Below the pieces are notes generated by a model, which was given only the letters and a program-made list of their open reading frames with translations, had not been told where the DNA came from and made no database searches. A program made the translations under genes and the position numbers. Of a DNA stretch of 64,000 nt, positions 5,056 through 55,883 are shown piece by piece. The stretch covers positions 2,859,001 to 2,923,000 of the forward strand of contig NC_015573.1 of NCBI RefSeq assembly GCF_000214705.1, in the 5' to 3' direction. The DNA comes from Desulfofundulus kuznetsovii DSM 6115. Its GTDB lineage: Bacteria; Bacillota; Desulfotomaculia; Desulfotomaculales; Desulfovirgulaceae. How positions within the stretch are numbered: the stretch's first letter is position 1; every line of letters starts with the position of its first letter.

Positions 5056-5334
5056 ATGGAAAACATCATTAATGTGGAAAATGCCAGGCGAATTCTGGGG
5101 GATTTGATCAGCCGGGTAAACGAAAATAAACAACCGGTAATCATCACCCGGCGCTCGAAAGAAAAGGCCATTCTTCTGGATTATGATGAGTACGTGCGAT
5201 TGAAAACCCTGGCTGAAAAGGCAAAGGAAGACCGGTTAATCGAAGCCCTGGAAAAGATCCAGCAAGCAGTCGCTGAAGCCGGTATTCCCTATGAAGCAGT
5301 CGCCGAAGCCATTCGCGAGGTTCGTTCCAGATGA
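5056..5334 (+). CDS. Phd/YefM-type antitoxin
   Basis: A 92-residue antitoxin that would bind its promoter and neutralise a PIN-domain ribonuclease. The N-terminal fold signature is visible (INVENARRILGDLISRVNE, then QPVIITRRSKEKAILLDYDE), which is the Phd/YefM DNA-binding domain; the C-terminal 35 residues are the charged toxin-binding tail. The start ATG follows a GAGGTGA site. The stop overlaps the toxin start as ATGA. A shrunken copy of this gene lies at 10406-10483, showing that this cassette was duplicated or moved within the island. Confidence 0.85.
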   Translation: MENIINVENARRILGDLISRVNENKQPVIITRRSKEKAILLDYDEYVRLKTLAEKAKEDRLIEALEKIQQAVAEAGIPYEAVAEAIREVRSR

Positions 5335-5882: not shown

Positions 5883-6638
5883 CTAAATAATCTCCCGGTA
5901 TTCCCTTTCAATAATACTCCTGAGCATTCCAGCCAGCCCGGACACACTGTCTATTTCACTGTAGGGGATGGTAAACCGGACAAATCTTTCATCCAGGTCC
6001 AGCTCGTCCAGAAGAGACCCGAAGAGGCCCCGGGCCTTTTTGTCGAGCTGCATGACCACCACCAGTTCCCTCTCCCCGGCCACGGGATAAACCTCGATTT
6101 CATCGAGCTCCCGGGCAAAATAGGTGGTGGGACGGTACTCAAACTCCTGGAAGCGGCCGTTGTAATCCCCACAGCCGGGCTTTTCCCGAAAGCCCAGGAC
6201 TTTTAAGGCATCGAAGAACATTTTGAACTCCCTGTTGGGCACTATTTGAATAGGGTCATGGTCAACCGGGTCAATGGCCTGGGGTATGTCCAGCCCCGTC
6301 TGGAGGAAGTACCTGGTCCGGCCCCTGGAAATGGGCAGGCCAAAGGGGATCTGGAAACTCACCGGGTAGACCTTTTCCTCCCCCGGCCGGACCACCATTT
6401 TCTCTCCCACCGTGACCGTGCCGATGATCCGGCGAATGTTCCTGGTTTGATCCCCGGCCTTATAGGCTGAGGATAGGATAAGGTTGATGTAGATTTTGTC
6501 CACCTGCTGTTCGACGTTCCCGCCCTGGATCCTGATGGTCCCATTCAGGATCCCGCCCAGAGGGACCGCAGTCCCCGCCACCTCCAGGTTTACCCTGGCA
6601 GAACCAATGCCAATGCTGGCGAGAAGTTTGGTAAGCAT
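5883..6638 (-). CDS. spo0M: Sporulation-control protein Spo0M, full copy
   Basis: A 251-residue Spo0M-family protein with the arrestin-like beta-sandwich N-terminal half typical of the family (SARVNLEVAGTAVPLGGILN near the start, then GTIRIQGGNVEQQVDKIYIN). In Bacillus, Spo0M affects sporulation and cell morphology; its molecular role is not settled. The start ATG follows a GGAGGTG site. The first two thirds of the gene plus about 65 bp upstream are repeated at 7701-8242 with about 97% identity by eye. The presence of this gene supports an endospore-forming host. Confidence 0.9.
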   Translation of the reverse strand: MLTKLLASIGIGSARVNLEVAGTAVPLGGILNGTIRIQGGNVEQQVDKIYINLILSSAYKAGDQTRNIRRIIGTVTVGEKMVVRPGEEKVYPVSFQIPFGLPISRGRTRYFLQTGLDIPQAIDPVDHDPIQIVPNREFKMFFDALKVLGFREKPGCGDYNGRFQEFEYRPTTYFARELDEIEVYPVAGERELVVVMQLDKKARGLFGSLLDELDLDERFVRFTIPYSEIDSVSGLAGMLRSIIEREYREII

Positions 6639-6703
6639 GATACACCTCCGATAGAATTTGGAAAGCTGAGGTATTGAATTCGCCGGGCAATGGGGAAATC
6701 CTT
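6162..6703. repeat. Segmental duplication, copy 1 (spo0M 5' part)
   Basis: This stretch, running from inside spo0M through its start and about 65 bp of upstream DNA, recurs in the same orientation at 7701-8242. I see scattered single-base differences only. The two copies flank a VapC/AbrB pair. Confidence 0.93.
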
Positions 6704-7700: not shown

Positions 7701-8177
7701 GTAATCCCCACAGCCGGGCTTTTCCCGAAAGCCCAGGACTTTTAAGGCATCGAAGAACATTTTGAACCCCCTGTTGGGCACTATTTGAATGGGGTCATGG
7801 TCGACCGGGTCAATGGCCTGGGGTATGTCCAGCCCCGTCTGGAGGAAGTACCTGGTCCGGCCCCTGGAAATGGGCAGGCTAAAGGGGATCTGGAAACTCA
7901 CGGGGTAGACCTTTTCCTCCCCCGGCCGGACCACCATTTTCTCCCCCACCGTGGCCGTGCCGATGATCCGGCGAATGTTCCTGGTTTGATCCCCGGCCTT
8001 ATAGGCTGAGGATAGGATAAGGTTGATGTAGATTTTATCCACCTGCTGCTCGACGTTCCCGCCCTGGATCCTGATGGTCCCATTCAGGATCCCGCCCAGG
8101 GGGACCGCAGTCCCCGCCACCTCCAGGTTTACCCTGGCAGAACCAATGCCAATGCTGGCGAGAAGTTTGGTAAGCAT
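7677..8177 (-). pseudogene. Truncated second copy of spo0M
   Basis: This copy keeps the start, ribosome site and first ~159 codons of spo0M, then runs into foreign sequence and stops after seven unrelated residues (LAAGLLC). The C-terminal third is missing, so a full fold is unlikely. It is almost identical to the full copy, which suggests a recent event. It could still be translated as a truncated arrestin-like domain. Confidence 0.85.
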
Positions 8178-8242
8178 GACACACCTCCGATAGAATTTGG
8201 AAAGCTAAGGTAATGAATTCGGCGGGCAATGGGGAAGTCCCG
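7701..8242. repeat. Segmental duplication, copy 2
   Basis: This is the partner of 6162-6703. The left edge abuts the YjbQ-like scrap and the right edge falls within a few bases of the stop of another gene remnant at 8245. Both edges therefore join unrelated gene fragments. Confidence 0.93.
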
Positions 8243-8876: not shown

Positions 8877-10298
8877 TCACAAATCGCCTGCACCATGGAA
8901 TTGACCGGCTTCAATAAGCAGCAGGTCGTGTCGTTCCGCCACCATCTCACGCAGCTCCTCAGTGAAACCGTTCCGGGCAAACATGGCGTAATACACATGC
9001 GGCGTCCGCTGAAAATGGGGCAGCACGGCTTTGGCCTTTTGCTGGAGTTCGGAGAGTATATTTGCCCCTACCGGTTTCGCCCACCATTTGCACTCGCCCA
9101 CCATAATGGCCGCTTCATCCTCACTAATGGCCAGCAGGTCCAGTTCGTTCTGCCCGTCCCACCAGGAGCCCAGGCGGTAGGGATAAAAGGGAAGTTTCCC
9201 CCGCCGCCCCAGGAGTCGCAAATGCTGCCGGCAAACCTCTTTAAAGGCCGGGCCAACAAACTCCGGAAAATGGGGCTTGATCCTGGTTTCCAGCACCCGC
9301 TCCGCTTCTCCCTCCTCGAGGTCGCTGCGGTTGGGGTAAACGAAGCGAAACCAGAAGCGCAGAAATTGATCCTGTAACCGGTAAATACCCCGGCGGCTTT
9401 TCTGCGGCTGCTTTTCCGTCACCGGCACCAGACGCTGGATTAAACCCATGTCCCTTAATATGTCCAGGTAACGGGAAGCGGCGCTGCGGTCGTGCAGGCC
9501 CGCCGCCTGGGTGATTTCATTCAGGCGGGTTTTGCCGTGGGCAATGGCCCTGAGCACGGCAAAATAATTGGCCGGCTCCCGCAGTTCCTGCATGAGAAGA
9601 AAACGCGGTTCTTCATAGAGGAAGGTGCCCCGGCGCAGCACCCGGCGGGCAATGCCGGCAAAAAGATCATCTTCATCTATAAATTCCAGCAGGTATGCCG
9701 GCACTCCACCGAGCACGGCGTAGGCTTCCACCTGCCAGATAGGATCCCTCCCCGGGAAAAAGCCCGCCATATCGTGAAAGTGCAGGGGCTCAATCAGGTA
9801 TTGCCCGGTGCGCCTTCCGTAGAGGGCGCTCTTATATCCCAGAACCTCCCTCTCCATCACTCCTACATAGGAACCGCACAAAATACACAATATCCCGGTA
9901 TTTCTCAATTCCTCGTCCCAGACTTTCTGCAGAATGGAAGGTATGGCCGGATTGGTCTCCATAAGGTAGGGGAATTCATCCAGCACCACAATAAGCCGAT
10001 CCTGGCGGGCCAGCCCGCCCATAAAACGGAAGGCAGCTTCCCAGGAAGGAAAGGAAAAACCCGTTTCTGCCTGTCCGTAGGCCTGCTCCCACAGCCGCTG
10101 CGAAAAAGCGGCCAGCTGCTCCCGGTCGGGCGCCAGGTCGGCCACAAAAAAGACATGTCTCTTCTCCCGGCAAAAAACCCTGAGCAGTTCCGTTTTCCCC
10201 ACCCGCCGGCGGCCGTATAACACCAGCAGCCCGGCACGACCGCTTCCATAAGCTTCCTCCAGCCAGTGTAGTTCAGCTTTGCGGTTTACAAAAGTCAC
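8877..10298 (-). CDS. AAA-family ATPase with C-terminal DUF234 nuclease-like domain
   Basis: A 473-residue protein of the archaeal-type ATPase group. The P-loop is LYGRRRVGKTELL near residue 30 and Walker B is RLIVVLDEFPYL near 105. A winged-helix stretch follows (about 250-300, LNEITQAAGLHDRSAASRYL). The C-terminus carries ELDLLAISEDEAAIMVGECK, which has the spacing of a PD-(D/E)xK nuclease core, as in DUF234. The GTG start has a GAGGTG site. Homologues are common in accessory regions of thermophiles and archaea; their function is largely unknown, with defence or mobile-element roles suspected. Confidence 0.85.
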   Translation of the reverse strand: MTFVNRKAELHWLEEAYGSGRAGLLVLYGRRRVGKTELLRVFCREKRHVFFVADLAPDREQLAAFSQRLWEQAYGQAETGFSFPSWEAAFRFMGGLARQDRLIVVLDEFPYLMETNPAIPSILQKVWDEELRNTGILCILCGSYVGVMEREVLGYKSALYGRRTGQYLIEPLHFHDMAGFFPGRDPIWQVEAYAVLGGVPAYLLEFIDEDDLFAGIARRVLRRGTFLYEEPRFLLMQELREPANYFAVLRAIAHGKTRLNEITQAAGLHDRSAASRYLDILRDMGLIQRLVPVTEKQPQKSRRGIYRLQDQFLRFWFRFVYPNRSDLEEGEAERVLETRIKPHFPEFVGPAFKEVCRQHLRLLGRRGKLPFYPYRLGSWWDGQNELDLLAISEDEAAIMVGECKWWAKPVGANILSELQQKAKAVLPHFQRTPHVYYAMFARNGFTEELREMVAERHDLLLIEAGQFHGAGDL

Positions 10299-10405
10299 AG
10301 CAGCACCTCATTGCTAATATAACTTGATTATGATATGATTAGCCTAATTAAGATTATACTAAACAAAATAACCGGACTCAATCCCGGATGCAATTAGCAA
10401 CAAAT

Positions 10406-10483
10406 AAAATAAACAACCGGTAATCATCACCCGGCGCTCGAAGGAAAAGGCCATCAGTCACCGAAGCCATTCGCGAGGTTCGT
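10406..10483 (+). pseudogene. Internally deleted copy of the Phd antitoxin gene
   Basis: Bases 10406-10454 match 5123-5170 of the Phd-type gene almost exactly (AACAACCGGTAATCATCACC core), and 10455-10483 match 5297-5325 (CGAAGCCATTCGCGAGGTTC core). About 125 bp of the original between these parts are missing, and so is the start. No toxin follows. This is a scar of a second Phd/PIN cassette. Confidence 0.85.
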
Positions 10484-10545
10484 TTACCCCGGAGGGGCAC
10501 TCCCATTTGCCTGCACTGTTTACCTGCACCCGGGGAGGAATAAAA

Positions 10546-11316
10546 ATGCTTCTCGAGAGCGAAAAAATTATCAGTGAAATTAAACGCCATGTCCAGGACC
10601 GACCACAGGTGGCCGTGGCCTATTTGATGGGGTCTTATGCCGGGGGCACGGCCACCCCTCTGAGTGATGTGGATGTGGGCATCGGCCTTTACCCCTCCCT
10701 GTGCCCGAACACAGACGACGCCCTGGATCTGGCAGCGGCACTGGAATACTCCCTGACGGAGGCGCTTTTTCCCGGTTATGACCCCGAACCCTGGACGGAA
10801 TGGCTCTTCACTCCGGTGGAAGTGGTGGTGCTGAATGCACCCCACACCCTTTCTTCCCTCCCCTGGATGCTGGCCGGCGCCCTGCCGGTCCACACCCCGG
10901 ATCCCTCATTTAAGGTGAAACTGGAAAAGCTGGCTTTCCGGCGCGGCCGCCCCACACCGGAAGAGGCCACCATTGCCGCCTGGCGGCTAAAGGCAACCTG
11001 GATCGTCCGCACCGCCCGGGGCCAGGTTTTTGCCTCCTATGAGGGCATTCTGCGCACCTGCCTGAACCTGGCCCACCGGGCGGTGGTCAGGCTGGGGCTA
11101 CCCGTACCGGAAGAACGGCAACAGCTGCCCCTGGTACTGTACCGGGCCGGCATCATTACCAGGCGGGCGGCTTCCTTTATCACAGAAGCCATCAATATAC
11201 TGTGCCACGACCGTGTAAACCTCCAGGCGTGGGAATATCTGCACCATCACCTCCACCTGCTGGCCGACTATGCCCTGCAGGTGGAAGACGCCCTGGAAAG
11301 GACCGTGAAGCAGTAG
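10546..11316 (+). CDS. Fused MNT nucleotidyltransferase and HEPN-like protein
   Basis: A 256-residue protein. Residues 20-60 carry the minimal nucleotidyltransferase motif (LMGSYAGGTATPLSDVDVGI), with GS and the DxD acidic pair intact. The C-terminal half is helical and resembles HepT/HEPN domains (NLQAWEYLHHHLHLLADYAL). In the MntA-HepT toxin-antitoxin system these are separate proteins and MntA AMPylates the HEPN RNase. Here they are one chain, and the RNase motif RxxxxH appears as INILCHD, with the Arg replaced by Ile. The RNase may be inactive. The ATG follows a GGGGAGGAA site; the more upstream in-frame start has none. Confidence 0.75.
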   Translation: MLLESEKIISEIKRHVQDRPQVAVAYLMGSYAGGTATPLSDVDVGIGLYPSLCPNTDDALDLAAALEYSLTEALFPGYDPEPWTEWLFTPVEVVVLNAPHTLSSLPWMLAGALPVHTPDPSFKVKLEKLAFRRGRPTPEEATIAAWRLKATWIVRTARGQVFASYEGILRTCLNLAHRAVVRLGLPVPEERQQLPLVLYRAGIITRRAASFITEAINILCHDRVNLQAWEYLHHHLHLLADYALQVEDALERTVKQ

Positions 11317-11409
11317 CAGCGACCGGCGAGATAGAGCCTTGCAGCGCCACTCAGAACCTGCAACCCGGTCTCTGCCAGTAGCAATGGGATCCTGCCCTAA
11401 GGGAACGGC

Positions 11410-11438
11410 TTGACATAGCTCGATGAAGGACATATGCT
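11410..11438 (+). promoter_or_regulatory. Promoter of the AbrB/PIN pair
   Basis: TTGACA (11410-11415) and TATGCT (11433-11438) are spaced by 17 bp. The expected start point is only about 14 nt ahead of the ATG, so the AAGGAGG site lies at the very 5' end of the message. Confidence 0.65.
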
Positions 11439-11458
11439 GTTGGTAAGGAGGTGTTCAT

Positions 11459-11728
11459 ATGTTAAGGGCACGATTAACGAGTAAGGGCCAGATAACCATA
11501 CCGGTAACTGTGCGCCGCATGCTTAACCTGCAACCGGGAGACGAACTACTCTTTGATGTAAGCCCGGAAGGCGAGGTTAAGGTAAAGTCTTTTAAACGCA
11601 AGCGCTTAACAGAGTTATACGCTTCTTTACCAACTGTTAAAGAATATCCTGGCAAAGAAAAAGTACGTGAGGAAGTAGCCGCCAGTATTGCCCGGCAGAT
11701 CCTGGGTAAAGGGAAAGAAAAAGAATGA
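11459..11728 (+). CDS. AbrB/MazE-type antitoxin
   Basis: An 89-residue antitoxin with a textbook swapped-hairpin domain (ARLTSKGQITIPVTVRRMLN, then LQPGDELLFDVSPEGEVKVK) and a basic helical tail for toxin binding. The ATG has an AAGGAGG site and a consensus promoter. It overlaps the toxin gene by 4 bp (ATGA). It is not closely similar to the other AbrB-type antitoxin at 7264-7512, so the two pairs were acquired independently. Confidence 0.88.
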   Translation: MLRARLTSKGQITIPVTVRRMLNLQPGDELLFDVSPEGEVKVKSFKRKRLTELYASLPTVKEYPGKEKVREEVAASIARQILGKGKEKE

Positions 11729-12147
11729 TTTATTTATGGATTGATGCCAACGTTGTTCTACGATTTCTTACCGGTAATCCGCCGGAGATGGCCGCCCAGG
11801 CGCTGGAGTTGATGGCCCGCGCCGAGAAGGGGGAAGTTTGCCTGCGCCTTCACCACCTGGTGATAGCTGAAATCGTCTGGGTTCTCTCCTCTTTTTACAA
11901 ATTTACCAAACGGGAGATTGCTAATACGCTGGTTTCCTTTATTCACGCGGATGGTATTCAAGTCGATAATTCCGATCTGGTTGTCCAGGCTTTACAAGAC
12001 ATGGCAAAAAAAAACATTGATTTTGTAGATGCCTACCTCGCCGCTCTGGCCAAACAACACGAAGAAAGTGTCTGTTCTTTTGATAGTGATTTCGAAAAGT
12101 TAAACGTAAGTCTGGTCAAACCCCCGGGATATCCGCAGGAGAAATAA
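11725..12147 (+). CDS. PIN-domain toxin
   Basis: A 140-residue PIN ribonuclease starting MIYLWIDANVVLRFLTGNPP, with the first catalytic Asp in that motif, the Glu in LVIAEIVWVLSS, and the remaining acids in NIDFVDAYLAALA and SFDSDFEKL. All four expected acidic positions are present, so it is probably active. It is translationally coupled to the AbrB-type antitoxin upstream. Confidence 0.88.
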   Translation: MIYLWIDANVVLRFLTGNPPEMAAQALELMARAEKGEVCLRLHHLVIAEIVWVLSSFYKFTKREIANTLVSFIHADGIQVDNSDLVVQALQDMAKKNIDFVDAYLAALAKQHEESVCSFDSDFEKLNVSLVKPPGYPQEK

Positions 12148-13238: not shown

Positions 13239-13506
13239 CTGGTTACCCCCAATCTTCTCCAACATTAGAAGTGCTATGAGAAACCCTTCAAACTACAATT
13301 ACCCGCAGTTAAAAACGCAGTAAAATAAAAGTTGTTGGAATGGGGCCACTCTTTCTTGCAGGGCGGTTACCGCAGCCCGGGCCACTTCCATGAGCTTTGC
13401 TGCCTGTTTTTTCCAACGCCAAAGCCAGGTGACCGGACGTTTTACATTCTGAGCGACCGCCGTCATCTTTACCTGTTCATCTACCGCATTATTCTTAGCT
13501 GCTCGT

Positions 13507-14190
13507 TTACCTGATAACCACCATATCCAAATCCAAGCCCTGGCGCTGTATCTCAAGCTCCTTTGATTGTCATATGGCAACCACCGGAATATCCAGGTGA
13601 AACGGGAAAGCTGAAGGTATTTGTAATAATTGTTGCAGCGGCATTATCGGGGTTGGTTCTGAACGTAGTAGGGCTTCCAAAAACCACAATTGAACATCTT
13701 CACTGGTGGTTTCCTTCTTAGCGGCAGGGACATAAATACCCTTCGTAGACGTGCCCTCGAGAACACCCCAGTCCACCATTGAACGAACTACCCGCTGGCA
13801 GGCCCGTCGCACCGTTGCCCTCTCCCCCCAGCACTCCGCTAAACGACGGGAAATTTGTTGCAAAGAAACTTCATTCTGAAGCGTCAATAGACGGCCGATT
13901 ATCGTCGCTATGTCCCGGAAAAAAGGATAGGCCAACAGCATCATGCCCCATTGCAACCAGAGGCGCGTGCCGGGGTCACTTTCGAGTAAAATTTTTAGAG
14001 CCCTGCCTTGTAATAATCGGTGCCATCCGGTACCCTTGCCCATATACGAGTTAATACTGTAACAGTTTTCCTTCGAGCCTCCTTATTTTTGTATTCCGTA
14101 CTTAAAAGCTCATTAAGGTATTTGCGTACTTCATCAGCGTTTCCTTCCGTTCCCGCTTTCCAGGCCGTAGCATCCAGCCACTCCCGCCGG
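13507..14190 (-). pseudogene. Decayed BrxA-like (DUF1819-like) gene
   Basis: Three minus-strand pieces form one protein. The first, in one frame, reads EWLDATAWKAGTEGNADEVR to RKTVTVLTRIWARVP. After a one-base loss near 14025, the frame with ALKILLESDPGTRLWLQWGM continues through RRACQRVVRSMVDWGVLEG to an in-frame TGA at 13570-13572. Beyond that stop the same frame still reads ELEIQRQGLDLDMVVIR up to a TAA at 13507. The layout (LL..s...WL..., a long helical middle, then V...L...GVL near the end) resembles BrxA. BrxA closes type 3 BREX operons, which fits the position. Confidence 0.6.
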
Positions 14191-14295
14191 TTGGCCAGAG
14201 GCATGATCATGTGGTTGTAGGCCTGGGCCAGGGCGGAGCCGTGCCCGGAAAATCTTTCCCGGCTTATACGGTCGGCCTCAATGATGGCCCGGTGG
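14190..14295 (-). pseudogene. GH57-like fragment spliced between brxC and brxA remnants
   Basis: One minus-strand frame reads [20 protein letters not shown] then AQAYNHMIMPLANRR. The string GHG.A.AQ.YNH.I.PLANRR is a hallmark of glycoside hydrolase family 57/DUF3536 proteins and has no place in BREX genes. It follows the point where brxC loses its frame and continues in frame into the brxA-like remnant. It seems to be filler DNA captured during the deletion. Confidence 0.6.
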
Positions 14296-14563
14296 CCATC
14301 TCCGGATATTCGGCCACCGCGGAGATTACCGACATTAAGTGGGATTTACCGGTACCGTAGTTGCCTACGATCAGCAATCCCTTGTTATCCTGGGGGTGAT
14401 CATATTGAAGTTGAGGAAAAACAACGCCTGCAAGCTGCTCGGCCATGCGGTCGGAGATTACATAGGTTTCAACTAACTGGTAAGCTCTGGCTTTAGCGTC
14501 GGCTTCACGCAATTGGACGATAGTCTCTATGGGTTCAAAATGAATCAGGTCATTGTATTTCAC
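14264..14563 (-). pseudogene. N-terminal stub of brxC (BREX ATPase)
   Basis: About 90 residues remain, starting at a GTG with an AAAGGTGGG site: [20 protein letters not shown], then a P-loop [20 protein letters not shown], then loss of homology after EYPEMA and a stop at 14264. Full BrxC/PglY-type ATPases exceed 1000 residues and carry this start. In type 3 BREX the order is brxF-brxC-pglX-brxH-pglZ-brxA; only the two ends are left here. The stub may still be translated, being 16 bp downstream of brxF. Confidence 0.72.
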
Positions 14564-14579
14564 GACACTCCCACCTTTG

Positions 14580-15050
14580 TTAAATTTGACAAACCAGAGC
14601 ATCAACCTCAGAATACTTTCTGTACTCCGGGTGACCGGGCTCGGCATAAATCAGGGTGCGACCTTCAAATTTTCCACTCCATGCAGCCACGATGGTCCGG
14701 GTGCGGCTGATGTGTTGAAGCAGGCGTAAAGGGTCCTGCTGAAGAGCAGGTTCAAAGAGTATCTCAATATTATCCAATAGAACAGTATCTCCTGCCCTAT
14801 CATCTATAATTGCCTCAACGATCCCGGGCAAACGCAACGGGCGAACCCGGCCGGGGTATTCAAGCAGTTTCTGGCTCAGTATCAGGTTCAGGTTAATGTA
14901 AGGATAACCCGCCTCATTGGACAGTTGAAGAAGAACCCGGGTTTTTCCAGTTGCGGCCGGCCCAACCAATAACACTAATTGATAATAACGCGACCGGGCT
15001 GCCTCTATATGTCTTTTCAGATCCTCTATTTTATCACTCATAGTAATCAC
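14580..15050 (-). CDS. brxF: BREX type 3 P-loop protein BrxF
   Basis: A 156-residue ATPase-like protein with Walker [17 protein letters not shown] near residue 30 and a Walker B-like strand [12 protein letters not shown] near 93. Length, opening ([20 protein letters not shown]) and position directly ahead of brxC match BrxF, the small P-loop protein unique to type 3 BREX phage-defence loci. It appears intact, but the methylase, helicase and PglZ genes needed for defence are absent, so it can hardly work as BREX on its own. Most likely it is a survivor of the deleted locus. Confidence 0.75.
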
Positions 15051-15142
15051 CGGTGCTCATGGTTCGACGGAATCTGGCGAAAATCCTGCCAAAAATAGCA
15101 GTCGTTGCTGCAGTTCCGGGTGTGATGCAACCAGCCAGAGCT

Positions 15143-15179
15143 AAAAAAAACAGGGCGAGGTTCCATCCTTTCCTCGCCC
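15143..15179 (-). terminator. Terminator of the glmS transcript
   Basis: GGGCGAGG (15153-15160) pairs with CCTCGCCC (15172-15179), followed on the minus strand by TGTTTTTTTT. It lies 110 bp after the glmS stop. No gene is seen between 15051 and 15289. Confidence 0.88.
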
Positions 15180-15289
15180 ACGCCTATTTCATTTCTATTC
15201 AGTTTACCACTTTATTACCAAGTCTACGACTCATACTCAGTTCACAACTTTATTCCATGAAAACACGAAAGAACTAATCCTGCCTCTCC

Positions 15290-17119
15290 CTACTCCACCG
15301 TCACGCTCTTGGCCAGGTTGCGGGGCTGGTCCACGTCGCAGCCCCTCACCACGGCCATCTGGTAGGCCAGGAGTTGCAGGGGTATCACGGCCAGCACGGG
15401 GGCCAGGACGGGGTTGGTGGGCGGGATGTAGAGCACGTGATCGGCCACCTTTTCCAGTTCCTTCTGCCCCTCCATGGCCAGGGCGATTACCGTGGCTTCC
15501 CGGGCCTTCACCTCTTTGATGTTGCTTAAGGTCTTTTCAAAGAGGTTCTTCTGGGTGGCCAGGGCGACCACCGGCACGCCCTTTTCAATCAGGGCCAGGG
15601 TGCCGTGCTTTAATTCCCCGGCGGCGTAGGCTTCGGCGTGTATATAGGAGATCTCCTTCAGCTTCAAGGAACCTTCCAGGGCCACGGCATGGTCCAGGCC
15701 CCGGCCGATGAAGAAGACATCCTCGGCCCTGCCGTAAATCCGGGCGAGGTCCTTGATCACGTGGCCGTTGCCCAGGATCAGTTCCGCCCGGCTGTCCAGC
15801 TGTTTCAACTCCCGGATGATCGCCTGCCTTTCCTCGACGGTCATGGTTCCCCTTACCGCGGCCAGGTGCAGGGCAATCAGGTACATGGCCACCAGCTGGG
15901 TGGTATAGGCTTTGGTGGAGGCCACGGCTATCTCGGGACCGGCCCAGGTATAGAGCACGTGGTCGGCTTCCCGGGCAATGGAGCTGTCCACCACGTTGGT
16001 CACGGCCAGCACCGGGGCACCCAGACGCCTGGCTTCTCTCAAGGCGGCCAGGGTATCGGCGGTCTCCCCCGACTGGCTGATTACTATCACCAGCGTACCT
16101 TCATCAATAAGAGGCTGGCGGTAGCGGAATTCCGAAGCGATATCCACCTCCACCGGTACGCGGGCCAGCTGTTCGATTACATACTTGCCCACCAGGCCGG
16201 CGTGGTAGGCGGTACCGCAGGCGGTGATAAATATTTTACGCAGGCTTCTCAGCTTCCCGTCATCAATCTCCAGTTCTTTGAGCACCACCGCCGAATCGTC
16301 ACCGGCCAGGCGGCCTTTCAAGGTATCCCGCAGGGCCCGGGGCTGCTCGTGGATCTCTTTGAGCATGAAATGGGCAAAGCCGTTTTTTTCCGCCTGAGCG
16401 GCTTCCCATTTTACCTCAAAGACCCGTTTCTCCACCGGCTCCCCGCACCGGTTAAAAATCTTTACTTCTTCCGGTGTCAGTACGGCCATCTCGCCGTCGT
16501 CCAGGATGTATGTACGCCGGGTATGGGCCAGCAGGGCGGGGATATCGGAAGCCAGGAAGTTTTCGCCCTGACCCAGGCCCACCACCAGGGGGCTGTCCTG
16601 GCGCACGGCCACCAGTTTATCCGGCTCGTCAGCAGACAGCACCACCATGGCGTAGGAACCCCGGATGTGCTCCACCACCCGGCGTACCGCCTCCACCAGA
16701 TTACCCTGATAAAAGTGTTCCACCAGGTGGGGAAGCACCTCCGTGTCCGTTTCGGAAGTAAATTGATGGCCCCGGGAGCCGAGCCATTCCCTCAGTTCCA
16801 GGTAGTTCTCAATAATCCCGTTGTGCACCACGGCAAAACGCCCGGAACAGTCGTTGTGGGGGTGGGCATTGGTGTCCGAAGGGCGGCCGTGGGTGGCCCA
16901 GCGGGTGTGCCCGATGCCGGTTCGCGCCTGGCCGTTGTAACCCTGCAACTTTTCCGCCAGGCCGACCAGCTTGCCCGCCTGTTTGTGCACCTTAATGACC
17001 CCGTCTTCCAGAACGGCAATGCCGGCTGAATCATAACCGCGGTATTCCAGCCTGGCCAGCCCGCCAAGGAGTATGGGTACGGCCCGCCGGGGGCCGGTAT
17101 AGCCAACGATGCCACACAT
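15290..17119 (-). CDS. glmS: Glutamine-fructose-6-phosphate aminotransferase GlmS
   Basis: A 609-residue enzyme that makes glucosamine-6-phosphate from fructose-6-phosphate and glutamine, the entry to peptidoglycan amino sugars. I start at the ATG giving MCGIVGYTG because Cys2 is the glutaminase nucleophile and must be N-terminal; a GGAGG site lies upstream. The glutamine amidotransferase domain covers about residues 2-220 (TRWATHGRPSDTNAHPH visible) and two SIS sugar-isomerase domains follow (SQSGETADTLAAL near 350). The C-terminus NLAKSVTVE is canonical. It is controlled by the glmS ribozyme just upstream. Confidence 0.97.
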   Translation of the reverse strand: MCGIVGYTGPRRAVPILLGGLARLEYRGYDSAGIAVLEDGVIKVHKQAGKLVGLAEKLQGYNGQARTGIGHTRWATHGRPSDTNAHPHNDCSGRFAVVHNGIIENYLELREWLGSRGHQFTSETDTEVLPHLVEHFYQGNLVEAVRRVVEHIRGSYAMVVLSADEPDKLVAVRQDSPLVVGLGQGENFLASDIPALLAHTRRTYILDDGEMAVLTPEEVKIFNRCGEPVEKRVFEVKWEAAQAEKNGFAHFMLKEIHEQPRALRDTLKGRLAGDDSAVVLKELEIDDGKLRSLRKIFITACGTAYHAGLVGKYVIEQLARVPVEVDIASEFRYRQPLIDEGTLVIVISQSGETADTLAALREARRLGAPVLAVTNVVDSSIAREADHVLYTWAGPEIAVASTKAYTTQLVAMYLIALHLAAVRGTMTVEERQAIIRELKQLDSRAELILGNGHVIKDLARIYGRAEDVFFIGRGLDHAVALEGSLKLKEISYIHAEAYAAGELKHGTLALIEKGVPVVALATQKNLFEKTLSNIKEVKAREATVIALAMEGQKELEKVADHVLYIPPTNPVLAPVLAVIPLQLLAYQMAVVRGCDVDQPRNLAKSVTVE

Positions 17120-17214
17120 ATCGAAAACCTCCAGCAAAAAGGTTTTTAGTCTAATAATTAGAAATGCCGGGGCACAGAAAGGCCTCCGGCAGAGAAAGGG
17201 GCTTTTGTAAAAAG

Positions 17215-18825: not shown

Positions 18826-18856
18826 GGTCAAAGACTCCTTTCACGCTCGACAGAGT

Positions 18857-19112
18857 GAAGTATCCCCAGTTTTTTAAAGCCCCTGTTTTGGCTCGGTAGC
18901 GAGCGACTTGAGCCGAGCGGCCAGCCAAACTTGGCGAGGCGAAAAGCGAAGGCAGGCCCGAGGGCATGGATGCCCGAGGCCGGCAACTGAGGCAGGATGC
19001 CGAATTTGCCGGGAAGCCTGCCGGAGCTTTGAGCCGAGCACTAGTTTGGCCCGCGAGGCTCACCGGAGCGAGCGGGAGCCAAAACAGGGTAGTTGGAAAG
19101 TGGGGATAACTC
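18857..19112 (-). repeat. MITE-like palindromic repeat, copy 2
   Basis: This is the reverse complement of the element at 2363-2616, with only a few base differences. It lies between cdaR and glmM, which are usually adjacent, so it seems to have inserted into the cdaA-cdaR-glmM-glmS operon. The transcript crossing it would fold into a long hairpin. The remaining ~150 bp to the cdaR stop (19113-19269) hold no recognisable feature. Confidence 0.88.
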
Positions 19113-19269
19113 AGCTTGACAGAGATCACGTCCAAACACTGATAATTATATCCACACCCATTGAAGAGGTCAATTTTTTGTCTGGAAGTTTGACTTCACT
19201 AACAATAATATGATCAGGGATAACTTCCGGTCATGTCGATCCTGGCAAATCCCTGCAGCCACCCGTTTT

Positions 19270-52925: not shown

Positions 52926-53138
52926 CTATCCCTCCTGCAGTCTCCTTAAAGCAGCACGAACATCAATATGAGACGGGCAGAATTCCATGCATCGCCCACA
53001 GCCGACACAAGATACCGATCCATGTTGCTTTGCGGTGTAGTAAAACTTGTGGTAAAGCCTGTGCTTGAACCGCGAGCTCTTCTCCCCTCTCATATTGAGG
53101 TTCCCGGCCATTTGGGCGAACCTCTCAAATCGAAGTTT
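52926..53138 (-). pseudogene. 3' part of an AsrA-like iron-sulfur gene
   Basis: The frame continues the protein cut at 55023: LRFERFAQMAGNLNMRGEKS, then HGSVSCVGCGRCMEFCPSHI for the second [4Fe-4S] cluster, ending at 52926. Joining the two parts gives about 350 residues, the usual length of AsrA. A start codon inside this part (Met of MAGNLN) has no good ribosome site, so separate translation is unlikely. Confidence 0.85.
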
Positions 53139-55022
53139 GAAACTTTCAAATTAAAACCTCCCGGAAATCAAGGGCTCCGGGGCAATAATTAAAGACGTAC
53201 CACTACATTTTCCTTCATTTTACAATAATGAGGGTGTGTGGTAATCATCGGAAGTCCGAGCACTTTGTTTGCAAGTGCCGTTACCGTCGTTTTTGATTTC
53301 AGCTACCTTTAGGGGTGGCCGGATTCCCAGTGCTCTGAATGCTTCATATGCGTTGCCCACCAGTTCCGTGCGGCATAGGTACTTGTCTTCCCCAATACTG
53401 AGTTCCACTGCTTTTAACTGTTGCAGGTCCCTGAGCAGGTAAACGTACTCCAGTTCAACTTCTTTTTCTGCCAGTTTTCTCTGTAAGGCCGATTCCAGGA
53501 CCAGGGCCAGGAAACAGACCATGATGTGTCCCCGGACACGGCTGTCTTTCCAGTGGTAGACCGGGCGCAGGTCCAGACTGGATTTCATTTCCCGGAAGGC
53601 CCGCTCTACACGCCAGAGGTCTTTATAGGCCAGGGCCACTTCTTCGGTACTGAGTTGAGAGTTGGTACGCAGGACGTACTTGCCATCATACCGGGCTTCT
53701 TCTCTCAGGGCTTCCTGATCTATACCCACCACGGCGTCTTTGTTAAGCAATAGATACCGGCGGTAACCACGGTTGCCCACCAGCGATTTGATTCCGCCGT
53801 TTTTAAGCTGTTCTTCCAGCTTCCGGCACATTTCCTCCCGGGCCTTTTTGTCGTGTTCGGCCTGGACGGGATTATGGCAAACGATGTACCGGTCAGCATC
53901 GTACCAGACTTCTTTTACTTTCAGGTTTCCTTTGACGGTCCGGTACCTGCCGCCTGTTTTGAGTACTTCGCCGACGTCTTTGACTTTACGCATGCGCATA
54001 CCCACAATATATTCGATGTGATTTTTGTCCAAATGTTCCAGAATATCCTGGCTGACCATGCCCCGGTCGCCTACAAAGACGACCCGGGTCAGTTGAAACC
54101 GTTCGCGGACGTCGGCAATGATTTGACTGAATGTGTTGACATCAGCTGTATTGCCGGGAAAAACCTCATGGGCTATAGGTATGCCGGCACGGGTCATTAC
54201 CACGCCGACCATTACCTGGATTCTGTCCGGTCGATGATCTTTGGAGTGGCCGTAACGACCCAATTCCTCTGGCCCTCTGCCTTCAAAGTATGTGGATGTG
54301 GTGTCCCAGAAAATCATGTCCACTTCCAGGTCGAACAGGTTTCTGGTGCTGTCAAAAAGGTCCAGTTCTATCCTCTCTTTATATTCGGCCAGAAAATCAA
54401 GGGCACGGTAAAGATGGTGCAGTTCCAGCTGGTCAAAGGACGGCCGGTAAACTTCTTTGAGCCATTCATTAACGCCCCGTTTGGAAAGCGGGTCGCTGAT
54501 CCGGTTCAGCACCATGGCGTAGACGGCCTCAGCCAGTTGGCTGCAGGTGTATGCCTGGGAGAAATGGCGTTTCAGGATAAAGTCCAGGCCAAGTTGTTCC
54601 CACAGATGCCGGAAAATTAAATCCAACCCCCATTCCTTGGCACTGTGAACCATCAGTTTATCAGCTTCGGCCTGTATCCATTTCGTTTTTGAGAATTTAG
54701 CCAGGCTGGCAATGAGCCGGTCAAGGCTGCCTTTCTGAAGTTCGTCGATGCGGCCCAGGTTGGCCACCACTTTCTGGCGCACTTTGCCGTGCTCCCTGAC
54801 GGCTTCGACTATCTGGACATAAGTTCTTTTTGAGCCGTCCTTGTTGGTGAAAGTTTTTGTTCTGGCATACATGGCATAGATATTATACCATGTTAAGGCA
54901 GGTTAGAAAAACTAAATATTTACAGACGTGGCACTACACTTTCGCAATTTTTAAGTATTCCGCTAACTAAGACCCTTGATTTTACTGGGTTTCCAGCTTC
55001 GTTGGAAATGTATGGGGCGCTA
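53139..55022 (-). mobile_element. IS1634-family insertion inside the AsrA-like gene
   Basis: The 1884-bp insert carries one transposase gene. The six bases AAGTTT occur on both sides (53133-53138 and 55023-55028); removing the insert and one copy restores the reading frame exactly (...DSSLKLRFERF...). I could not find clear terminal inverted repeats at these borders. Instead, two imperfect direct repeats with the core GACGTNNCACTACA flank the transposase at about 53185 and 54933. The element ends are therefore well placed by the gene but not explained by IS structure. Confidence 0.85.
53220..54872 (-). CDS. IS1634-family transposase
   Basis: A 550-residue DDE transposase of the IS4-like group. 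The three acidic positions appear in IFWDTTSTYFEG, VFVGDRGMVSQ and AYKDLWRVERAFREMKSSLD (the YREK-like Glu motif), in the usual order. The N-terminus (VQIVEAVREHGKVRQKVVAN) and RVRGHIMVCFLALVLESAL near the C-terminus are typical of IS1634 elements. The gene is intact and could be active, which suggests a recent insertion. Confidence 0.93.
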   Translation of the reverse strand: MYARTKTFTNKDGSKRTYVQIVEAVREHGKVRQKVVANLGRIDELQKGSLDRLIASLAKFSKTKWIQAEADKLMVHSAKEWGLDLIFRHLWEQLGLDFILKRHFSQAYTCSQLAEAVYAMVLNRISDPLSKRGVNEWLKEVYRPSFDQLELHHLYRALDFLAEYKERIELDLFDSTRNLFDLEVDMIFWDTTSTYFEGRGPEELGRYGHSKDHRPDRIQVMVGVVMTRAGIPIAHEVFPGNTADVNTFSQIIADVRERFQLTRVVFVGDRGMVSQDILEHLDKNHIEYIVGMRMRKVKDVGEVLKTGGRYRTVKGNLKVKEVWYDADRYIVCHNPVQAEHDKKAREEMCRKLEEQLKNGGIKSLVGNRGYRRYLLLNKDAVVGIDQEALREEARYDGKYVLRTNSQLSTEEVALAYKDLWRVERAFREMKSSLDLRPVYHWKDSRVRGHIMVCFLALVLESALQRKLAEKEVELEYVYLLRDLQQLKAVELSIGEDKYLCRTELVGNAYEAFRALGIRPPLKVAEIKNDGNGTCKQSARTSDDYHTPSLL

Positions 55023-55883
55023 AAGTTTCAAACTTGAGTCAAAATGGCATGAATCCCACACGAGTACCCTTGTTCCTTCGCTTCCGTCCGGGCTCGTTTT
55101 GTCGATAATGGTAAAGCAGTGGCACGTCGGGCAGACCATATTGCAGGCGCCGCACGTAAAACAATTATCGGAAAACTCATTCCAGAGTTCATCGTTATAC
55201 TTGTCTGCCATAACAGATATTATCTTCGCTGGATCGACTTTCTCCGAAAGCCCCTCCTTAACTTTTTTCAGCTTTGCCTCTCTCAGTTCTCTATCCTGAT
55301 CGGTCGCATCCCTGAAGTAATCAGCGGATATAAGCTCTTTGCCTAGATCGGTTTTTGCTCTAAAGAAGTAACTGTCTCCTATATCCGTCATCAGCAGGTC
55401 GTAGCCGCTTTCAATATCGGGCCCTGAACCCAGGCTATTACAGAAACAGTGTTGCCGGGTTTCACTACAAGTCAAACCAATTATGATGCTCTTGCGTCTC
55501 TTGTCCTGGTAATAATGGTCCACAAAGCTATCTTCCATAAAAACTTTATCGAGGCACAATATTGCTGTAATATCACAAGGTCGTAATCCAAAAAGAACTC
55601 TTTCCTTATCCCAAACTTCCCGCAGGTCCTGTAACTTCACATTCTGGCCGTTTTTTTCATATTTGTAGAGTGGTTGACTATCCGGAAAATATATCCTCTT
55701 AGGAGACAACATGCTGGACTTATAGTCAATTTCCAGATCCTCCACCCCTTTTACGTAGTCAAAGGTCGTATAGGTATACGTGGACGTGGCTCCACCCTTC
55801 TTTGTTGGCCCGATAACTTTATACTTCGTTACCAGATCACCCAAAAACCTGGAGAAATGCGCTTTATCCAGAACTTTTTCCAT
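55023..55883 (-). pseudogene. 5' part of an AsrA-like iron-sulfur gene
   Basis: This part encodes about 287 residues: an N-terminal domain (LFGLRPCDITAILCLDKVFM is a conserved AsrA/HydB segment), CSETRQHCFCNSLGSGP, and the first ferredoxin cluster FTCGACNMVCPTCHCF. It is cut at SCHFDSSLKL by the IS element; a stop occurs three bases inside the insert. In the AsrA family the protein carries electrons from an AsrB-type flavoprotein. With the second cluster missing, the electron chain to the MopB subunit is probably broken in this strain. Confidence 0.88.

Follow-up and report, generated by a model that had tools for sequence, protein, structure and literature searches.

The window analysed here is a stretch of 64,000 nucleotides from the genome of Desulfofundulus kuznetsovii DSM 6115 (contig NC_015573.1; own genome G000). 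Between two flanks that are conserved in a congener, genome G002, it contains a collapsed type 3 BREX locus, with the following features.

15290..17137, minus strand: ORF that we take to be glmS from its translation; conserved flank on the brxF side, with the same flank in G002
14580..15050, minus strand: brxF, type 3 BREX P-loop protein; intact 156-codon ORF recognized by PADLOC and NCBIfam profiles
14294..14647, minus strand: brxC remnant, 118 codons from an ATG at 14647, ending at the deletion breakpoint
14182..14295, minus strand: filler of 114 bp, 100% identical to G000:C1:2849096-2849209 (plus strand)
13507..14183, minus strand: brxA remnant, start gone, with a frameshift and a premature stop; matched by PADLOC PDLC02437 in two frames
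10507..11316, plus strand: nucleotidyltransferase gene (Pfam Polbeta/NTP_transf_2), conserved flank on the brxA side; 97% identical to G002 L016:1-1499

The brxF product matches PADLOC PDLC02497 (E 9e-59) and NCBIfam BREX_3_BrxF (E 4e-54). The brxC remnant matches PADLOC PDLC02482 (E 3e-48) at profile positions 1-91 of 1231, and the similarity to this profile is lost directly after the P-loop. It also matches Pfam DUF6079 (E 9e-40). Against NCBIfam BREX_BrxC the remnant scores 22 bits, with a cut-off of 400. The full-length BrxC of G002 reaches 44 bits and is also below this cut-off, indicating that the NCBIfam model is a poor fit to this BrxC subfamily. The remnant is colinear with G002 brxC (1254 aa) as far as position 14294 and lacks more than 90% of the full length.

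The brxA remnant matches PADLOC PDLC02437 at profile positions 11-69 of 238 in one frame (E 4e-15) and at positions 67-213 in the other (E 1e-57), after which the premature stop follows. Compared with the ORF in G002, the initial 19 codons are gone. Besides the deletion, two lesions were located, a frameshift near 14023 and a premature stop at 13570-13572. In Pfam and NCBIfam, no BrxA match was obtained with either the window pieces or the intact G002 BrxA. The BrxA call is therefore that of PADLOC and the G002 comparison, and the BrxC call is that of PADLOC, G002 and Pfam DUF6079. An initial annotation of this DNA had described an intact brxF, a brxC that stops after its P-loop and a BrxA-like gene with a frameshift and an in-frame stop, and all three descriptions are borne out. 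It had also proposed profile searches for each piece; PADLOC recovered BrxF, BrxC and BrxA, and Pfam failed for BrxA, intact or broken.

The type 3 BREX core is reported to comprise six members, the tripartite core plus BrxA, BrxF and BrxHII (PMC12839542), and a BREX system has been studied in Salmonella laboratory strains (PMC9009780). In the window, BrxF is present, and full-length BrxC and intact BrxA are absent. PglX, BrxHII and PglZ are absent as well, the brxC and brxA remnants being separated by 110 bp of filler alone. The end genes match type 3 BREX by profile, and G002 has type 3 genes, whereas in the window pglX, pglZ and the helicase are missing and what is left of brxC and brxA is truncated or broken. 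Judged from its gene content, the truncated locus is a relic, predicted to be unable to work as BREX. The classical type 3 BREX order is brxF, brxC, pglXI, brxHII, pglZ and brxA.

A DNA search was performed in six genomes of the genus, including that of DSM 6115. Both sides of the scar are matched by G002 at the same chromosomal place, with 96.7% identity over 14294-16000, 96.6% over the brxA remnant (13507-14183), which corresponds to a 244-aa open frame in G002, and 97.1% over the outer flank (9954-11447). In G002, the locus lies on two contigs, with brxF and brxC first and brxA last. The first contig carries glmS, brxF, brxC (profile positions 1-1231) and pglX (888 aa), followed by a NucS-like gene of 245 aa and a 966-aa ORF that has no profile match at the thresholds used. 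The second contig has an ORF of 311 aa, two helicases, one of the DEAD type (1611 aa) and one of the SNF2 type (937 aa), and also pglZ (682 aa) and brxA (244 aa). The type 3 members BrxF, BrxC, PglXI, PglZ and BrxA were all detected over these two contigs. The G002 BrxA covers profile positions 3-236 of 238, and PglZ matches BREX_PglZ_3 with 863 bits (cut-off 250). The PglXI match spans positions 32-792 of 919 with the protein end unconfirmed, so this pglX is not called intact. For the 937-aa helicase, the best PADLOC model is labelled BrxHI|BrxHII and described as BrxHI (E 0), a model described as BrxHII gives E 2e-83, and NCBIfam DrmD scores under its cut-off. Its length fits that of BrxHII, reported as about 940 residues (PMC12839542). 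In G002 coordinates, at least 21,378 bp are missing from the window; the figure is a lower bound because the two G002 contigs need not be continuous in the middle of the locus.

Two further differences were observed on the brxA side. The G002 homology ends exactly at the brxA stop codon (window 13507), past which the window has a 291-aa ORF whereas G002 has GmrSD/NsnA-type and other genes. Window positions 11448-11981 (534 bp, with more than half of a PIN gene and a MazE-like gene) are absent in G002, where the flanks nearly abut.

The filler consists of 110 unique bp with a 2-bp microhomology at each end. Searching the own genome with 13500-15060 returned the locus itself and one other place, which is identical over 114 of 114 bp. 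This donor lies within an intact 823-aa open ORF (L003:8792-11263), whose neighbour genes presumably encode trehalose-pathway enzymes. The donor protein matches Pfam DUF3536 (E 4e-121) and Glyco_hydro_57 (E 2e-22). This profile evidence is for the full donor protein, and the filler is tied to GH57 by DNA identity. Since the match is exact over 114 bp, a chance likeness to GH57 was rejected, and since the donor frame is intact, the filler is a copy. Donor and scar are 23,973 bp apart in opposite orientations, and this distance to either side amounts to 1.3% of the genome. The GH57 frame continues directly into the BrxA frame, as would happen by chance at one joint in three. As another filler source, a mobile element was considered from a 93-aa ORF (13299-13580) with a weak HTH_Tnp_1 match (E 0.05, Pfam). 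This origin was rejected because the ORF sits at the far end of brxA, away from the joint.

Among the six genomes of the genus, the DNA search found the GH57 gene in two (G000 and G001) and did not find it in G002. The filler has no changes relative to the donor. With drift in the scrap alone since the split from G002, 1.8 changes would be expected (P 0.16 for none); with free drift in both copies, the probability of none is 0.03. As selection presumably acts on the donor, these values hint at a younger event and give no date.

Alignment to G002 and to the donor indicates that the bases common to both sides are CC at the brxC/donor joint and GA at the donor/brxA joint. Because each breakpoint shares only 2 bp, homologous recombination was rejected. 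At random joints of the same sequences, at least 2 bp are shared in 16.1% and 15.9% of cases, respectively, and in 2.5% for both together. This favours, not strongly, the use of microhomology at the joints. The scar has features expected of an end-joining product with a captured or templated insert: no extended homology, an identified donor, and NHEJ genes in the genome. The latter encode Ku (Ku_bact, E 7e-96), an NHEJ ligase (NHEJ_ligase_lig, E 1e-75) and a LigD-type polymerase (ligD_pol, E 3e-82), which are separate adjacent genes, each scoring over its own model cut-off.

A literature search covering titles and the beginnings of abstracts yielded one direct experimental parallel in bacteria. 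In Streptomyces ambofaciens, I-SceI breaks were repaired with deletions that measured 191 to 23,591 bp, two clones having lost more, and half of the scars showed a microhomology of 1-6 nt (PMC5869714). Three clones had acquired DNA of their own genome, namely pieces of 42 and 83 bp that originated nearby and one of 30 bp from a transposase gene of the terminal repeats (PMC5869714). Repaired clones were nearly lost without KuA, with one remaining, and none was obtained without LigC/LigD (PMC5869714). The inserts themselves would presumably need Ku. The S. ambofaciens scars and the scar in the window are alike in deletion size, microhomology and the nearby origin of the insert. They differ in that the former arose from an induced cut in an actinobacterium, whereas the latter is a natural scar in a defence operon. 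The window insert, 110 bp, inverted and from 24 kb away, is also slightly longer than the S. ambofaciens inserts.

Collectively, we consider it likely that end joining repaired one break, at the cost of a large deletion and with nearby DNA captured or copied into the joint, and that the locus then decayed. The ancestor would have had a type 3 BREX operon directly downstream of glmS. One or more double-strand breaks would have occurred within this operon, and the ends would have been joined without homology. The loss would extend from just after the P-loop codons of brxC as far as the first codons of brxA. A GH57 piece of about 110 bp, from 24 kb off, would have entered the gap by capture or copying, each joint having a microhomology of 2 bp. 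Ku, the NHEJ ligase and the LigD-type polymerase would be the likely machinery. Presumably this was a single event, and the frameshift and the stop in brxA would have arisen after the deletion. End joining is favoured because of the filler, the 2-bp microhomologies and the Ku, ligase and polymerase genes. The proximity of the donor was counted in its favour, and so was the like scar type in S. ambofaciens, where repair needed KuA and LigC/LigD almost entirely (PMC5869714). Counted against it are the division of the G002 locus between two contigs, the 2-bp microhomology, which is weak alone, and the one Streptomyces clone without KuA (PMC5869714).

Several claims of the initial annotation can be assessed at this point. 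The order with brxF-brxC first and brxA last is seen in G002, which supplies the proposed comparison with relatives by carrying a fuller locus at the same site. The loss of pglX, brxH and pglZ in one large deletion stands as the best reading, with at least 21.4 kb missing relative to G002. The GH57 piece of about 100 bp, said to sit exactly at the scar in frame with brxA, does so and is 114 bp long with 110 bp unique. The search for its parent gene was successful, this gene being present in the same genome 24.0 kb away. The suggestion of end-joining repair from the filler is supported by the filler, the microhomologies and the repair genes, with Ku/LigD as the presumed pathway. It was also noted that a relative with the same gene order as a conserved unit would speak against a collapse; no such unit was seen at the ten brxF loci described below.

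Pol theta and MMBIR leave templated insertions, or filler DNA, at eukaryotic breaks. These insertions are likewise short copies of DNA from elsewhere, placed at a deletion joint with microhomology. The enzymes are different: the window is bacterial, and its genome encodes Ku and a LigD-type polymerase. A replication-based origin of the MMBIR/FoSTeS type would have a fork, stalled or broken in brxC, switch to the GH57 gene by 2 bp, copy 110 bp and switch again to brxA, with no part for Ku or LigD. The intact, nearby and inverted donor and the short microhomology at both joints agree with this, and templated insertions by MMBIR are described in eukaryotes (PMC8421209). The literature search (titles and abstract beginnings), however, returned no bacterial example of template switching and did return a Ku-dependent case (PMC5869714), and the genome has an NHEJ gene set; we regard such switching as unlikely. 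Alternative end joining independent of Ku, in which very short homologies pair the resected ends and nearby DNA is taken up, would equally yield a large deletion with two joints that show microhomology. Illegitimate recombination with insertions is mentioned for E. coli (PMC5869714), and large deletions in Deinococcus have been ascribed to alternative end joining (PMC8149714). The 2 bp found here, however, are at the low end of the range of 2-20 bp given for that process (PMC8149714), and a dedicated Ku, ligase and polymerase set is available in the genome, making this route quite unlikely.

The remaining explanations concern the number of events or the nature of the locus. The two additional disabling mutations in brxA indicate that the locus also changed at other times, as would suit a plain deletion with a GH57 fragment inserted later at the joint. 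But the filler occupies the joint with base precision at either end and no remnant of an older junction is seen, so that two events appear very unlikely. An assembly or cloning chimera, with no biological deletion, is extremely unlikely given the single 3.60-Mb contig, the disabling mutations of brxA beside the scar and the approximately 97% colinearity with G002 on both sides, the scar being known from the assembly of one strain. A functional minimal defence module of brxF, short brxC and brxA would agree with the intact brxF, for which dN is 0.023 and dS 0.123 relative to G002 (dN/dS about 0.19), values that sum both lineages and include the time before the loss. Against such a module, over 90% of brxC is gone, brxA is broken twice, pglX, pglZ and the helicase are missing, and the unit recurs at none of ten brxF loci in other genomes; we give it almost no credence.

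Ten brxF loci from other genomes were checked by profile. Eight of them (L025-L032) have a BrxC frame of at least about 950 aa adjoining brxF, some of these frames being cut by contig ends, and no BrxC match was obtained at the other two (L024 and L033). A conserved mini-BREX unit of brxF, short brxC and brxA was considered and rejected, as it occurs at none of the ten loci. One locus (L030) has brxF, brxC, pglX, pglZ and brxA in that order on one contig. Five ORFs of G006 and six of the nine listed G004 ORFs of at least 150 aa were also profiled. The G006 brxC is 1244 aa long. In G006:C107 (L034, L035), the type III-C CRISPR genes Cas10c and Cmr4 lie between the BREX genes brxC and pglX.

Both loci without a BrxC match have other junctions. 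In Moorella stamsii (L024:9974-11590), a BREX remnant lies about 4 kb beyond the glmS homologue. Its truncated brxF directly abuts, with no filler, the gene whose window counterpart comes next after brxA, and then an ATPase gene fragment follows. In a Thermoanaerobacterales MAG (L033:7991-11779), a single frame matches BrxF and PglX, and pglZ in two pieces and then brxA follow. By its gene content, the latter looks like another collapsed BREX.

The region downstream of glmS also varies among the genomes G000 and G002 to G005 of the genus. BREX is found there in G000 and G002, a PADLOC PDC-M26A match in G003, SIR2 and HerA in G005, and, some kb further on, HerA-like and MzaA-like genes in G004. 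From these gene contents, the site (window position ~15049 outward; L038, L039, L040) looks like a hotspot for defence genes.

The locus provides a natural scar resolved to the base, in which at least 21 kb were deleted, with both ends placed by a sister genome, and the donor survives in the chromosome. It is a natural example of a product already made in the laboratory (PMC5869714). The novelty is moderate because the process has this experimental precedent. The scar also documents the loss of a defence operon in apparently one step. It can guide scans of genomes with and without Ku for such scars, with regard to donor distances and to whether Ku/LigD predicts them. A broader reading is that copying of nearby DNA into breaks by a polymerase system of Ku/LigD type is a regular, distance-biased source of mutation in thermophilic spore-forming Firmicutes, and that such end joining repeatedly erases BREX operons. 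We consider this doubtful; the repeated erasure draws on the remnants with other junctions in Moorella stamsii and the Thermoanaerobacterales MAG.

The window was also compared with its own genome in four pieces, with the best 40 of 199, 184, 63 and 142 candidates scored. Among the matches listed, there was no other case of a short piece from inside a gene being exactly repeated between single-copy loci far apart; the others are dispersed repeats, an element of about 1.9 kb, weaker or longer similarities and local duplications. Two regions about 5 kb apart, 10406-10484 and 5123-5326, have a 49-bp and a 30-bp piece in common at 97-98% identity, and these could be smaller scars of the GH57-filler kind. 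A dispersed repeat of about 260 bp at 18856-19115 occurs in at least 15 other places over at least 235 bp at 94% identity or more, including 2360-2618, with many partial matches besides. The repeated element of about 1.9 kb (53128-55039) has at least five more near-full copies at 98-100% and is IS-like by its copies. A direct duplication of 540 bp (6162-6701 and 7701-8240, 97% identity) flanks two small ORFs, which by eye resemble an antitoxin/PIN pair.
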